Shown here piece by piece: positions 12,284 to 19,598 of a stretch of DNA of 22,314 nucleotides. The translations under genes and the position numbers were made by a program. Location of the stretch: positions 1 through 22,314 of the IMG/VR virus record IMGVR_UViG_3300030108_003721; one strand, given 5' to 3'. Within the stretch, counting starts at the first letter, position 1, and every line of letters starts with the position of its first letter. The notes beneath the pieces are model-generated. The model ran no database searches, was not told the DNA's origin, and saw nothing but the letters and a program-made list of their open reading frames with translations. The stretch comes from a virus.

Positions 12284-12535
12284 TTAATTATTTAGCTGTT
12301 GGATAAGTGTAGAAAACTTATCTAATATTTTTTGTTTGAACTCATCAACGACTTGGTTGCCTTGATTTTCAAGAATATGTTTCTCAACCTCTCCCTGTAG
12401 TAGTTGAAACATAATTTCGTAGTTGAGTTGTTTTTTACCATTAGCGTCTATGTGCAACGCTGACTTTTCAGTTGGCTTGTTATTGCTAACTCGTTCACTC
12501 AATACTTGGGCAATATTAATTAAACTATTTGTCAT
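12284..12535 (-). CDS. hypothetical protein, 83 aa
   Basis: An 83-aa protein (MTNSLINIAQVLSERVSNNK...), not recognised. It is mostly helical; the C-terminal half (ILENQGNQVVDEFKQKILDK then FSTLIQQLNN) looks like an amphipathic or coiled-coil helix. No Cys, no membrane segment. AGGAG lies 6 nt before the ATG within the 3' end of the 108-aa gene (11-nt overlap), so both are probably translated from the same message. Last gene before TerL. Confidence 0.6.
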   Translation of the reverse strand: MTNSLINIAQVLSERVSNNKPTEKSALHIDANGKKQLNYEIMFQLLQGEVEKHILENQGNQVVDEFKQKILDKFSTLIQQLNN

Positions 12536-12851
12536 TAGTATCTCCTATTGCTTTGTATTCACTATAAACCAATTCAGTAGTGAACTTGTTAAATAAATCG
12601 TTATGGGCAATCTTGAAATTTGCTGTTTCAAATTTCTTACGCTTACGATTTATTTTCTGAACACCAAAAGAATTACCATCTTCATCTTGGACAATAATTA
12701 AATTTTGGTTGGTTCTATCGAACACATTAACAATATTTTGTTTCATTGTGTCGATCTCTTTAGCTAGTCTATTAGACTTTAGCTTTAGTTGAGCATAAGC
12801 TAGGACTACTTTTTTTTCATCTTGCTTTAGCTTTTTTATCGCTTGTGTCAT
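12525..12851 (-). CDS. hypothetical basic protein, 108 aa
   Basis: A 108-aa protein, not recognised. Residues 1-45 (KKLKQDEKKVVLAYAQLKLK then SNRLAKEIDTMKQNIVNVF) form a long helix, followed by a short beta-like part (NLIIVQDEDGNSFGVQKINRKRKKF). The plan resembles small phage accessory proteins of DNA metabolism, but no catalytic motif is visible. It has its own promoter and the shared AAACTAACAAAGGAG leader (12858-12872), unlike the coupled genes downstream. Confidence 0.6.
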   Translation of the reverse strand: MTQAIKKLKQDEKKVVLAYAQLKLKSNRLAKEIDTMKQNIVNVFDRTNQNLIIVQDEDGNSFGVQKINRKRKKFETANFKIAHNDLFNKFTTELVYSEYKAIGDTNDK

Positions 12852-12857
12852 TTTTAA

Positions 12858-12909
12858 CTCCTTTGTTAGTTTGACCTCTAACTCTTATCAAATCCCATAC
12901 TTATTGCAA
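12858..12909 (-). promoter_or_regulatory. promoter and shared leader of the 108-aa gene
   Basis: Minus-strand TTGCAA (12909-12904), 16-nt spacer, TAAGAG (12887-12882) with an extended TG (TGATAAGAG). The spacer carries TATGGGATTT. Downstream is the leader AAACTAACAAAGGAG (12872-12858), which includes the ribosome site. Both the promoter and the leader are near copies of those at 13547-13597. Confidence 0.6.
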
Positions 12910-12912
12910 TAG

Positions 12913-13116
12913 TTAATTTAACTTTTTTTTGTCTAATTTTTTAAGTATTGGTTCAACCTCTAATTGTATAAAATCGCTGCCAACTATTTCTTTCAATCTG
13001 CCTGCCAACTGGGTTAACTCTGCTGTAACTCTATCTTGTTCAATCTGTCCAGCTTTACGAGATCGAGAGCGAGGCGAGGCGACAACTGTCGCCTCTGCTT
13101 TTTTATTTTTCGACAT
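12913..13116 (-). CDS. hypothetical protein, 67 aa, with embedded Arg/Ser repeat
   Basis: A 67-aa protein starting MSKNKKAEATVVASPRSRSR. The ATG at 13116 forms a TAATG overlap with the stop of the 141-aa gene, which decides the start over an in-frame one at 13131. Residues 14-22 (SPRSRSRKA) are encoded by a copy of the GC-rich repeat seen in the structured region at 13700-14890. The rest (QIEQDRVTAELTQLAGRLKE and on) is a helical, possibly coiled-coil domain. Not recognised; function unknown. Confidence 0.6.
   Translation of the reverse strand: MSKNKKAEATVVASPRSRSRKAGQIEQDRVTAELTQLAGRLKEIVGSDFIQLEVEPILKKLDKKKLN
13057..13093 (+). repeat. ACGAG-type repeat copy with adjoining hairpin, inside a gene
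   Basis: A run of CGAG units (13057-13083, beginning ACGAGATCGAGAGCGAGG) resembles the repeat at 13843-13870 (AAACGAGACGAGGCGAGAAC and on). It adjoins a perfect 7-bp inverted repeat, GGCGACA-AC-TGTCGCC, at 13078-13093. The element lies within the coding sequence of the 67-aa protein and is more GC-rich than its surroundings. Confidence 0.5.
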
Positions 13117-13541
13117 TACCAGCTGCACCAATATTCAACGACCTTTTTCTCATCTATCGCCTGCTCACAGAATTTGAGAAACTTGATGTCCTGCTCTTTG
13201 TATTCTTCGACACTCTCTTTCTGAAATTGTTGACCCCAAAAGAAACCATCAGTTGCGACATAATCCTTATAGCCATTTTTGATACACTCCCCCAGTTCCT
13301 GCACAACTTCCTTTGTCATATAACAAGGTGCTTCTTGGTCGGCATTAAAACCGAGATGCTTGAGAAACCCCTCAACTTCTACTTTAGGGTTTTGCTCTGC
13401 CCACTTGCACGACATAAATTGCTGAAGTCTTGCGTGCTTTCTCCAAACGAAAACTTTTTCGGTTTCCTCTTTATCGTCATCAAAGTATTTTTCCCAATTT
13501 ACCTTATGACCTCTTAAATGTGCGTGTTGGTCTAATCCCAT
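13116..13541 (-). CDS. conserved phage protein of the MGLDQ-LRG type, unknown function
   Basis: A 141-aa protein beginning MGLDQHAHLRGHKVNWEKYF. Conserved-looking blocks are VFVWRKHARLQQFMSCKW, HLGFNADQEAPCYMTKEVV, DGFFWGQQFQKESVEEYKEQ and a C-terminal CSW. I recognise this as a widespread phage family without an established function; the many Trp, Cys and His residues suggest a compact folded domain. I chose the ATG at 13541 because GGAG lies ideally upstream and the family starts here; an in-frame ATG at 13589 overlaps the promoter instead. Confidence 0.75.
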   Translation of the reverse strand: MGLDQHAHLRGHKVNWEKYFDDDKEETEKVFVWRKHARLQQFMSCKWAEQNPKVEVEGFLKHLGFNADQEAPCYMTKEVVQELGECIKNGYKDYVATDGFFWGQQFQKESVEEYKEQDIKFLKFCEQAIDEKKVVEYWCSW

Positions 13542-13546
13542 TTTCT

Positions 13547-13597
13547 CTCCTTTGTTTGTTTGATTCGTCATCTTATCATATCCCATCAATATAGCAA
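13547..13597 (-). promoter_or_regulatory. promoter and shared leader of the 141-aa gene
   Basis: Minus-strand TTGCTA (13597-13592), 16-nt spacer, TAAGAT (13575-13570) with extended TG (TGATAAGAT). The spacer carries GATGGGATAT (13587-13578). The leader AAACAAACAAAGGAG (13561-13547) differs from that of the 108-aa gene at one position. Confidence 0.6.
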
Positions 13598-13871
13598 GAA
13601 CTATCTTTTAGAATCGTTCTAAACTACGAAGTCTTCCTGAAGGAAGTGCCGTGAGCAGCACGGGAATTACTTAAGATATAAGAAAATCAACATAACCAGC
13701 ACGAGAACGAGGTTACCAAACCTTGGAGCTAACAGGTATGCCAGCAGTAAAAACCCAACTAAATGTATCATTATCTACACAACAACCAGGGAAGTGCCAT
13801 CTGGCCCTGGAGGGCCCGGTAACCAATGTAAATTCTAAAACCAAACGAGACGAGGCGAGAACGACACGACA
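13598..13871. other. gene-free structured segment with repeats
   Basis: No convincing gene. It holds short perfect inverted repeats: CTTCC/GGAAG (13633-13646), CCGTG/CACGG (13649-13663), CCAGGG/CCCTGG (13786-13810) around GCCA/TGGC, and GGCCCT/AGGGCC (13803-13816), the last two mutually exclusive. Repeat copies are at 13701-13712 and 13843-13870. Parts (TGCCAGCAG, GGGCCC, AATGTAAA, then the repeat) recur in the same order at 14541-14586, suggesting an old duplication. On the minus strand it would be the 3' untranslated part of the 85-aa gene's message; no U-tract terminator is seen. Confidence 0.5.
13701..13870 (+). repeat. repeat family ACGAGAACGAGG, left cluster
   Basis: Two copies: ACGAGAACGAGG at 13701-13712, flanked by GGTTACC, and a longer variant AAACGAGACGAGGCGAGAAC at 13843-13862 continuing GACACGAC. 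GGTTACC (13711-13717) and GGTAACC (13818-13824) form a 7-bp inverted pair between the copies. Confidence 0.65.
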
Positions 13872-14129
13872 TTAAGAATCTCCTTTAACACGATAATCCA
13901 TCCAACCAACTGCTTCTTCGACACCTTTGATGAATGCCTCCTTCTGCTGCACGGTATCAAAGTCGTATCTCTTCTCCACATCGTATCCTCTTCCCCACAC
14001 GAGGGTGATGCTGCAGCCTGAAGGTACTTCTGACTCCTTCCAACTGTTTCCGTTGGCAATGCATTTGCTGCCACGAGGACCGGTCAATGCGTAAGTCTTA
14101 CCCGCATCAGGTTTGTCTTTGTTCTTCAT
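13872..14129 (-). CDS. hypothetical protein, 85 aa
   Basis: An 85-aa protein (MKNKDKPDAGKTYALTGPRG...), not recognised. It has two Cys (about 23 and 39), a beta-like central part (GCSITLVWGRGYDVEKRYDF) and a helical C-terminus (TVQQKEAFIKGVEEAVGWMD). AAAGGAG lies 6 nt before the ATG in a leader matching those of two other genes. It is the only gene in the structured 13.6-14.9 kb region and lies downstream of a long non-coding leader. A competing ORF in another frame (13835-14074) lacks a ribosome site and is taken as a shadow. Confidence 0.65.
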   Translation of the reverse strand: MKNKDKPDAGKTYALTGPRGSKCIANGNSWKESEVPSGCSITLVWGRGYDVEKRYDFDTVQQKEAFIKGVEEAVGWMDYRVKGDS

Positions 14130-14460
14130 ATTTTTCTCCTTTGTTAATTCTTACCTCAGGTCTAGCACGATTTACGATACACGAGCCCACGCGTATATGC
14201 TGGCGGTGTATCCACCTACTAGACCAGAGATTTGACCAGTGACCGAGTAGCGGAAAATAAATTTTCAACGCGTCGCCCACTGATCCTAGGTCCATTACTG
14301 TAGCTACCTTGCAAGTGGCAATGGACCAAGGATCAGCACCTACACTAAAGTAGATTTTCGGACAGGGGTTCCCAAAACTTCACCCTTTCGGACTCAGTCC
14401 GCTGATCTCAGGATCAGTAGCGCATTTTACTTTATCGCGCGACGCTTACTGATCCATTTC
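14130..14460 (-). ncRNA. long structured leader or non-coding RNA (candidate)
   Basis: About 330 nt without a credible gene, starting just downstream of a consensus-like promoter on the minus strand. Strong inverted repeats: 14411-14422 with 14443-14455 (12 bp, one bulge); CGGAC/GTCCG (14389-14401); 14280-14296 with 14320-14336 (17-mers, one mismatch); CTAGACCAGAG (14219-14229) with CTCAGGTCTAG (14155-14165), one mismatch, enclosing GATACAC/GTGTATC (14176-14212). GCGTCGC (14270-14276) and GCGACGC (14439-14445) could pair at long range. GGATCAG recurs in several arms, so alternative folds are possible. I see no match to tRNA, hammerhead or a riboswitch I know. It ends in the leader of the 85-aa gene. 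Confidence 0.5.
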
Positions 14461-14461
14461 T

Positions 14462-14490
14462 AACATAAGACCAGATGGGATATTTGTCAA
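14462..14490 (-). promoter_or_regulatory. sigma70-type promoter upstream of the structured leader
   Basis: Minus-strand TTGACA (14490-14485), exactly 17 nt, TATGTT (14467-14462). The spacer contains ATATCCCATC, the reverse complement of the GATGGGATAT element in the promoter at 13570-13597. Best match to the consensus in the window. Confidence 0.65.
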
Positions 14491-14571
14491 CAGTTAATTT
14501 TTATTTTTTTTTTACCAACAGCTCGTGATGCCAATGAAGTTGCCAGCAGCAGGGGCCCAGACTCAAATGTA

Positions 14572-14889
14572 AAACGAGAACGACACATTTCCCTTTCTAA
14601 AACGAGAAACGAGCTCCCAACAGGATCCCGTCCCAGAGCCCCGTGTCAACTAACAAAGGGAAAAAAACACGGAGCTCTGGCACGAGAACGAGGTCACAGG
14701 TCAGGGTGCATGTGCCATGCGCTGCCTGGAAGGGGATGCTGGTTCTTTTCCTAAACGAGAACGAGGTTTCTTCGTTAAACGAGAACGAGCTCCTCCTGAC
14801 GCTGCACCGGGTACCTGGAGCATGTAACTCTGGACCGTTGGCCAGTCATACGGGAACGAGAACGAGGCACGAGGTTTCAGTAAACGAGG
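14572..14889 (+). repeat. repeat family ACGAGAACGAGG, right cluster
   Basis: Seven copies on the plus strand: AAACGAGAACGACAC (14572-14586), AAACGAGAAACGAGC (from 14600), CACGAGAACGAGG (14681-14693), AAACGAGAACGAGG (14753-14766), AAACGAGAACGAGC (14777-14790), GAACGAGAACGAGG (14854-14867) with an extra CACGAGG, and a short AAACGAGG (14882-14889). Spacing is irregular (24 to about 75 nt), so it is not a CRISPR array. From 14701 the copies lie inside the 3' part of the nuclease reading frame. Confidence 0.75.
14633..14680 (-). ncRNA. 14-bp hairpin whose loop is antisense to the shared leader
   Basis: Arms CCAGAGCCCCGTGT (14633-14646) and ACACGGAGCTCTGG (14667-14680) pair at 13 of 14 positions; the remaining pair is C-A on the plus strand but a G-U wobble on the minus strand, so the minus-strand RNA would be fully paired. 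The 20-nt loop contains, on the plus strand, AACTAACAAAGG (14648-14659), identical to the leader of the 108-aa gene; on the minus strand it is its perfect antisense, covering the ribosome site. No own promoter is seen; it could be made from the nuclease transcript. Confidence 0.5.
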
Positions 14890-15246
14890 ATCGGTGAACA
14901 GGGACACCGGTTCGTACAGTTTAAGGACTCTCTCAAAGAGGGCTTTACCCAAGTTTTCATGCAATACAAATACAGAACCACCAGCTTTAATATATTTATT
15001 AATCCATACAATTTGCCATTTATTTAACGCTGGAAAACTGATGTGATCTGATTTTAATTCTATCCAAAATATTTTTGTTTTTGCAACTGCATGAACATCA
15101 GGTATTCCGTTAATTGTGCTAGATTCTATGCGGGTTAAAAAGCAATCAGTCAGTCCTTTTTTTACCTTTTGCCATAAAAGACTTTCGGGGTTTTTAACAT
15201 TGTTTTTGTAGTCAGTATTTTTATATTTTTTCATGTGAAACATCAT
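14701..15246 (-). CDS. VRR-NUC-type endonuclease with repeat-encoded C-terminal extension
   Basis: A 181-aa protein. Residues 20-105 match the VRR-NUC branch of PD-(D/E)XK nucleases: Arg39-Ile-Glu41, NGIPDV with Asp50, WIELKS with Glu63 and Lys65, and Gln78 in NKWQIVW, then AGGSVFVLHE. Such phage nucleases cut branched or replicating DNA. The family domain ends near residue 115-120; the remaining 60 residues (ASFSFPYDW..., RSRLTKKPRSRLGKEP) are encoded by the ACGAG repeats read in reverse. The 5' end overlaps the 2OG oxygenase gene by 26 nt; two ATGs (15246 and 15243) are possible and no clear ribosome site is seen. Confidence 0.75.
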   Translation of the reverse strand: MMFHMKKYKNTDYKNNVKNPESLLWQKVKKGLTDCFLTRIESSTINGIPDVHAVAKTKIFWIELKSDHISFPALNKWQIVWINKYIKAGGSVFVLHENLGKALFERVLKLYEPVSLFTDPRLLKPRASFSFPYDWPTVQSYMLQVPGAASGGARSRLTKKPRSRLGKEPASPSRQRMAHAP

Positions 15247-18994: not shown

Positions 18995-19267
18995 TCAATT
19001 AGGTGTCTGTGCATCTCTTCTGTCCTTTCTACTTTCTATTTCATCCCATAATAAACTACAAGCCACATCACTATTAATTAAATAAATAGGCATATCAGTA
19101 AAGTTAAGAGAACAAGAAGTTAATCTTCGCATTTGGTCTTGGAAATGTGGATCTGAATATTCCATTTCAGCACCGGATGCTGTGGTTATATGTGTCTTGG
19201 ATAGTATTTCATCTATCTCTTTTATCCAATTACTCCAAGCTTCTGATTTAGATTTAATTCCGTTCAT
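18995..19267 (-). CDS. hypothetical protein, 90 aa
   Basis: A 90-aa protein starting MNGIKSKSEAWSNWIKEIDE; not recognised. Mostly helical with two Cys (52 and 70) and a charged C-terminus (DEIESRKDRRDAQTPN). GGAG lies 7 nt before the ATG. It overlaps the 96-aa gene by 14 nt, so the two form a coupled pair. Confidence 0.6.
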   Translation of the reverse strand: MNGIKSKSEAWSNWIKEIDEILSKTHITTASGAEMEYSDPHFQDQMRRLTSCSLNFTDMPIYLINSDVACSLLWDEIESRKDRRDAQTPN

Positions 19268-19544
19268 ATATTCTCCAACTAGAAAAACAAGATAAGATTT
19301 TATCTAACGCTTCGTGAAACTTAATGTTAGCACCTAAATTGTCTTTACAATTAAACTCTCTGTAAAGTTCATTATTCACGTGTAATGATATTTTATTTGT
19401 ATCTTCATCAAGAGTAAGAACAAATTTTCTTACTTTTGATTCGTCTCTGTCTTTTTCTTTCACCCATTCAGGCTTTAAGACTAAGGGTTCAACTGTAGCT
19501 GTTGCTCCAGTCGTCACACCTTCTATTTTTTGATCATCTTTCAT
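19254..19544 (-). CDS. hypothetical protein, 96 aa
   Basis: A 96-aa protein (MKDDQKIEGVTTGATATVEP...), not recognised. A polar N-terminus is followed by a beta-like part (SKVRKFVLTLDEDTNKISLH) and a helical C-terminus ending CFSSWRIYERN. The start is preceded by the shared leader AAACTAACAAAGAGG (19564-19550) and by a promoter at 19571-19598. First gene of a two-gene unit with the 90-aa protein. Confidence 0.6.
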   Translation of the reverse strand: MKDDQKIEGVTTGATATVEPLVLKPEWVKEKDRDESKVRKFVLTLDEDTNKISLHVNNELYREFNCKDNLGANIKFHEALDKILSCFSSWRIYERN

Positions 19545-19549
19545 GGTAT

Positions 19550-19598
19550 CCTCTTTGTTAGTTTTATCTCAATATAATATTTTTAATGGGATATGCAA
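19550..19598 (-). promoter_or_regulatory. promoter and shared leader of the 96-aa gene
   Basis: Minus-strand TTGCAT (19598-19593), 16-nt spacer, TATATT (19576-19571). The spacer starts with ATCCCATT, so ATATCCCATT overlaps the -35; read on the plus strand it is AATGGGATAT (19585-19594), just upstream of the oppositely oriented 70-aa gene. The leader matches those of three other minus-strand genes. Confidence 0.55.

Follow-up and report, generated by a model that had tools for sequence, protein, structure and literature searches.

A conserved hairpin RNA with a loop antisense to small-gene leaders, probably a translational repressor, in uncultivated relatives of HTVC023P-type pelagiphages

The window, that is the whole 22,314-nt stretch of viral DNA analysed here, carries on its minus strand a block of genes that is opened by the gene for a 96-aa protein (19254-19544) and closed by a nuclease-like gene, with a hairpin behind the latter. 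There then follow on the same strand a promoter-like site, small genes and the gene for the large terminase. The features needed for the argument are as follows.

14701 to 15246, minus strand: nuclease-like gene (PHROG endonuclease/helicase matches), its stop codon adjoining the hairpin; the constant neighbour of the hairpin in relatives
14622 to 14693, minus strand: conserved hairpin RNA element, at the full extent of its covariance-model match
14648 to 14665, minus strand: hairpin loop of 18 nt, 5'-TTTTTTCCCTTTGTTAGT-3', antisense to the leader AACTAACAAAGG
14462 to 14490, minus strand: promoter-like site TTGACA-17-TATGTT between the hairpin and the small genes, found by scan and conserved in the close relatives L001 and L002
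12881 to 12909, minus strand: putative promoter-like site TTGCAA-N17-AAGAGT immediately ahead of the 108-aa leader, seen in the sequence and in relatives, the hexamer limits being approximate
12852 to 12887, minus strand: 5'UTR and Shine-Dalgarno of the 108-aa gene, the proposed main target, with AACTAACAAAGG at 12860-12871; a 12-nt exact complement of the loop that tracks loop changes in relatives
12525 to 12851, minus strand: gene for the 108-aa protein, an open reading frame conserved in the clade and proposed to be repressed
19552 to 19563, minus strand: leader AACTAACAAAGAGG of the 96-aa gene, a further possible target (complementarity; relatives)
14138 to 14149, minus strand: leader of the 85-aa gene, a further possible target (complementarity; duplex energy)
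13549 to 13560, minus strand: leader of the 141-aa gene (gene 13116-13541), a further possible target (complementarity; duplex energy; relatives)

The 108-aa protein has no Pfam or PHROG match, its structural model (pLDDT 77) gave no confident structural neighbour in a fold search, and nothing detectably similar is present in any of 50,697 deposited phage records. Directly upstream of its gene stand a promoter-like TTGCAN and then an A/T-rich hexamer, and the 108-aa mRNA probably starts just before the target site, in which case the hairpin RNA would act in trans. The promoter-like site here is not listed by a consensus promoter scan, and promoter-like sites are no more numerous in the region than chance would give. 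Among relatives the hairpin is found some 1.5-2.7 kb upstream of the 108-aa gene (3.7 kb in one case) and on the same strand as the proposed targets, and for these two reasons a cis-encoded antisense RNA was rejected.

On the minus strand the hairpin has an inner stem of 15 bp (14633-14647/14666-14680) that includes two G-U pairs, a 1x1 mismatch at 14632/14681 and an outer stem of 6 bp (14626-14631/14682-14687). The first-pass annotation had placed a stable hairpin at 14633-14680 with a 14-bp stem and a 20-nt loop, and the hairpin is indeed there, with the dimensions to be corrected as above; its C-A on the plus strand, where the minus strand has G-U, is found at 14640/14673. Folding of the minus strand gives -38.6 kcal/mol (z -7.4, none of 200 shuffles being equally good) and of the plus strand -26.3 (z -5.8). 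An intrinsic transcription terminator was rejected as an identity for it, given the 18-nt loop, the lack of a U-run behind the stem in window and relatives alike, and its absence from the scan's list.

The loop, CCTTTGTTAGTT, is complementary over 12 nt to the 108-aa leader AACTAACAAAGG, over 11 nt to the 96-aa leader AACTAACAAAGAGG and over 9 nt to the 85-aa leader AATTAACAAAGG, lengths that had been given correctly at the outset, and the 141-aa leader now adds a fourth complementary site. Base 14647 can lengthen the loop-leader match if the U-G pair that closes the loop comes apart. For these four leaders the predicted duplex energies are about equal (-16.8 to -18.2 kcal/mol), and the other twelve of the 16 leaders tested reach -9.6 or weaker. 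When the loop was shuffled, a 12-nt exact complement to any of the 16 leaders arose in 9 of 3000 cases; the energy of the real duplex with the 108-aa leader, a computation that had been called for, is -17.5 kcal/mol and was reached by none of the 3000, the best of which gave -17.0.

That the hairpin belongs to a conserved RNA family is clear from its relatives. Two contigs about 92% identical to the window (L001 and L002) keep the loop unchanged and in the stem have replaced a G-C pair by A-U, a compensatory change, and a loop pattern search of the viral collection followed by folding found the same loop on quite different stems in dozens of contigs. Relatives were later collected via the neighbouring nuclease gene rather than the loop pattern, all loci in the comparison having been reached by way of genes from a single clade. 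From 25 hairpins, with the lineage of the window left out, a covariance model was trained that detects the window hairpin at 47.2 bits (E 1.7e-11). With it, 79 of 80 related nuclease loci have one copy each on the gene strand (E 4.2e-7 or better), close behind the end of the same nuclease gene, and the contig of the eightieth (L185) ends too early, with only 46 nt behind the gene. Stem sequences vary freely yet covary: in an alignment of 40 sequences both sides have changed in 14 of 17 pairs, and covariation scores 0.46, where shuffling gives 0.198 +/- 0.014 and sliding at most 0.144, a picture with which an alignment of 25 sequences agrees. The search of related phages and the covariation test proposed in the first-pass annotation thus both came out in favour of the hairpin. 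Its most conserved part is the loop, and a family-like loop is seen in 148 of the 157 contigs that have the 108-aa gene and enough DNA upstream, a few of the 148 being doubtful.

Across the clade the common loop core, 5'-CCUCUUUGUU, is the exact antisense of AACAAAGAGG, which most homologs of the 96-aa gene and many of the 108-aa gene have in their leaders; most 141-aa leaders carry AACAAAGGAG. Where the loop departs from this core, the 108-aa leader tends to have departed with it. In the lineage of the window the leader is AACTAACAAAGGAG and the complement of the loop AACTAACAAAGGG, in L148 and L153 (T)AACAAAAAGGA in the leader goes with a loop complement of AACTAACAAAAAGGA, in L320-L325 and L353 both have CAAACAAAGAGG, and in L302 the match spans 19 nt with the start codon included. 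The match is broken in L178 and L179 (loop complement AACTAAGAGG against leader AACAAAGAGG) and also in L361-L366. Over 73 distinct cases the own 108-aa leader is bound better than the leaders of other phages (-16.4 against -14.9 kcal/mol, shuffled loops giving -7.2), with a permutation P of 1e-4 in a test not corrected for phylogeny. Nearest-relative contrasts, which correct roughly for phylogeny, were redone on family-like loops because a structure-first choice of the strongest hairpin had mixed in unrelated ones; these loops were picked without reference to the own leader, and the doubtful ones were removed. They favour the own 108-aa leader by 16 to 5 (sign P 0.013, Wilcoxon 0.004), and by 10 to 1 among large effects.

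Quite which leader the loop has followed can be judged from the same contrasts, in which the 141-aa leader gives a weaker signal (18 to 9, sign P 0.06), so that part of the signal may be shared ancestry, and the 96-aa leader none that is significant. When candidate start sites are ranked (median 77 per case), first place goes to the 108-aa leader in 37 of 69 distinct cases, and in 54 it is among the best three. We rejected the 96-aa gene as the only target, for its leader AACAAAGAGG, while fitting the common loop exactly, does not follow the loop changes in the lineages of the window and L148, remaining AACAAAGAGG in L148 itself. Across the clade the likeliest single partner would therefore seem to be the stretch ahead of the 108-aa gene, its 5'UTR with the Shine-Dalgarno; the 96- and 141-aa leaders fit as well, but less certainly. 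The loop has kept its fit to the ribosome-binding site of another gene through evolution, as would a trans-acting antisense sRNA that blocks ribosome binding, and the position of the hairpin, at an mRNA 3' end and adjoining the stop codon in the window and 79 of 80 relatives, is that of a 3'UTR-derived sRNA.

We consider it probable that the hairpin is a phage-encoded antisense RNA which blocks translation of the 108-aa gene and of genes with related leaders, probably acting in trans. Such an RNA would be transcribed with the operon of the nuclease gene, or be processed from the 3' end of that operon, on the gene strand, and would fold into a long, slightly interrupted stem presenting a pyrimidine-rich loop of 18-20 nt. 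The loop would cover the site at which ribosomes bind ahead of the 108-aa gene and, less certainly, the corresponding sites of other genes with the same leader, and in keeping the 30S ribosomal subunit away it would repress or delay translation of the target. As the loop is the antisense of the ribosome site of a few small genes, this is probably an off switch made by the phage; expression of the RNA, its action in trans, the repression and its timing we infer from the comparative sequence data. The first-pass proposal of a regulatory RNA directed at the small-gene leaders is upheld to this extent, in a conserved gene-strand hairpin with an antisense loop, and loses its plus-strand alternative (below).

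A different role for the hairpin follows from its constant place next to the nuclease stop codon and its long stem with regular mismatches, as expected were it a 3'-end element of the nuclease transcript, either a stabilising hairpin or a processing site of the RNase III type, for which the stem is selected and the loop match is a by-product. We regard this as unlikely, since the most conserved part is a loop that tracks the 108-aa leader, something a stabiliser does not need. A little less likely again is that the loop is bound by a protein of phage or host (or by Hfq) or pairs with a host RNA, its similarity to the leaders coming from a shared pyrimidine/purine-rich bias. The strongly conserved U-rich core CCUCUUUGUU does resemble an anti-Shine-Dalgarno, but the matches reach past the Shine-Dalgarno in both directions, and they have changed in step with the leader. 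The pairing itself might instead take place in cis within a long read-through transcript, with the hairpin followed by the 108-aa gene on the same strand, or it might be activating, for instance by mRNA stabilisation; we give this a small probability, in that promoter-like sites lie both between the hairpin and the 108-aa gene and directly upstream of the 108-aa leader, and covering a Shine-Dalgarno normally represses.

That the antisense RNA proposed here belongs to the gene strand is shown by the base pairs themselves. Among 77 distinct hairpins the fold is better on the gene strand in 69, and there are 2.8 G-U pairs per hairpin on that strand against 0.5 on the other. A G-U on one strand is an A-C mismatch on the opposite one, and so selection has acted on the gene-strand RNA, which disfavours a role of the DNA only. 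Very improbable, too, is the decoy suggested at first, a plus-strand transcript whose loop reads AACUAACAAAGGGAAAAA, a leader without start codon, and shows a leader-like ribosome site, since what pairs as G-U on the minus strand is an A-C mismatch on the plus strand, the neighbouring genes run on the minus strand and a scan finds no plus-strand promoter-like site at the hairpin.

A known RNA family is ruled out by searches with Rfam 15, which includes the C4 antisense RNA: the window has no gathering-level match, a permissive search of 14560-14760 gave sub-threshold hairpin look-alikes only, mostly microRNA models and no C4, and the relatives likewise match no family. No such element is described in the HTVC023P-type phage literature searched, most subscription journals lying outside that search. 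The c4 antisense RNA of phages P1 and P7 is a structured RNA with complementary sequences thought to be in loops, and blocks translation around a ribosome-binding site (PMC12197685). It shares with the hairpin its phage origin, structure, loop complementarity and, for the hairpin as a prediction, action at a ribosome-binding site; the hairpin in contrast is single and long, comes from lytic-type marine phages, faces several leaders and has no antirepressor or immunity context, apart from the lack of an Rfam match. The sar RNA of phage P22, antisense to the ant mRNA, blocks its translation initiation (PMC12197685), and a phage antisense RNA against translation initiation of a phage gene is what is predicted here too, although the hairpin is on the same strand as its targets, at 1.5-2.7 kb from the 108-aa gene, with the match in a covarying loop. 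Outside phages, OppZ and CarZ of Vibrio cholerae are 3'UTR-derived sRNAs that autoregulate their own operon by base-pairing (PMC7398697); the hairpin is likewise at an operon 3' end, but the equivalent target, the 96-aa gene that is first in the block, is not the best supported. In Staphylococcus aureus a pyrimidine-rich motif in the icaR 3'UTR pairs with the Shine-Dalgarno region of its own mRNA and hinders translation initiation (PMC3868564). A pyrimidine-rich motif facing a Shine-Dalgarno region is common to both, whereas the motif of the hairpin lies in the loop of a covarying structure and faces mainly a site in another gene.

By terminase similarity the window lies near the Pelagibacter phages HTVC023P and HTVC027P, and a Pelagibacteraceae single-cell assembly (AG-919-D18) encodes the 108-aa protein at 89% identity, which suggests SAR11 hosts for the hairpin-bearing phages. 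The contig in question (L378, CACMNP010000007.1, 47.8 kb) begins inside the 108-aa gene homolog, and with the contig cut there the hairpin model has no match in the assembly. Nor does it match in the whole HTVC023P record or in the examined 25-kb stretches of HTVC027P and 023Pt_psg01, and no convincing leader-complementary loop was seen in HTVC023P or in a distant clade (L006, L008, L017, L019, L021). The hairpin hence marks a clade separate from the HTVC023P-type records examined, and an uncultivated one. The general leader AACTAACAAAGGAG is still in use in HTVC023P and thus extends to phages beyond those with the hairpin. Relatives with the leader and not the loop, which the first-pass annotation had named as evidence against its idea, are therefore to be had in HTVC023P, which counts in part against that idea, but would be few within the hairpin-bearing clade, given the 148 of 157 contigs above.

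More broadly, and tentatively, this may be an undescribed antisense RNA family of uncultivated HTVC023P-type pelagiphage relatives, in which one loop would control a set of genes in trans through a shared 5'UTR code, loop and leader coevolving. An antisense hairpin may explain why one leader is common to unrelated small genes, and an RNA that is conserved, present once and defined both in its loop and in its target site makes translational control directly testable in a probable SAR11 phage, the co-change of loop and leader being a natural data set for antisense coevolution.

Other repeats and structures were observed in the region. CTCGTT occurs 13 times on the minus strand of the window, each time within 13700-14890 and often doubled as CTCGTTCTCGTTT; in relatives the same repeats flank the hairpin and form part of its 5' arm, and another clade has CCCATTTCCCA-type repeats at the corresponding place. 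In many relatives (e.g. L087, L121, L160) a small hairpin, GTATTC-ATAA-GAATAC, stands in the 108-aa 5'UTR directly before the target, with compensatory variants GCAATC/GATTGT and GCAAAC/GTTTGT. At 14150-14450 on the minus strand, behind the TTGACA promoter-like site, lies a fast-changing array of hairpins (CTGATCC...GGATCAG) that cannot be aligned with L001 and L002, both flanks being about 92% identical; the hairpin model matches it weakly at 14274-14344 (E 0.0046). At the place of this array some relatives (L009:5330-5560, L005:2140-2370, L014:1-230) have in common some 200 nt of strongly conserved sequence (GGCTGGTC...GGGATCGCAAAGTCCCTAGGAACCAGACTTTGG...) that also follows a TTGACA promoter-like site and has the look of a further structured RNA.
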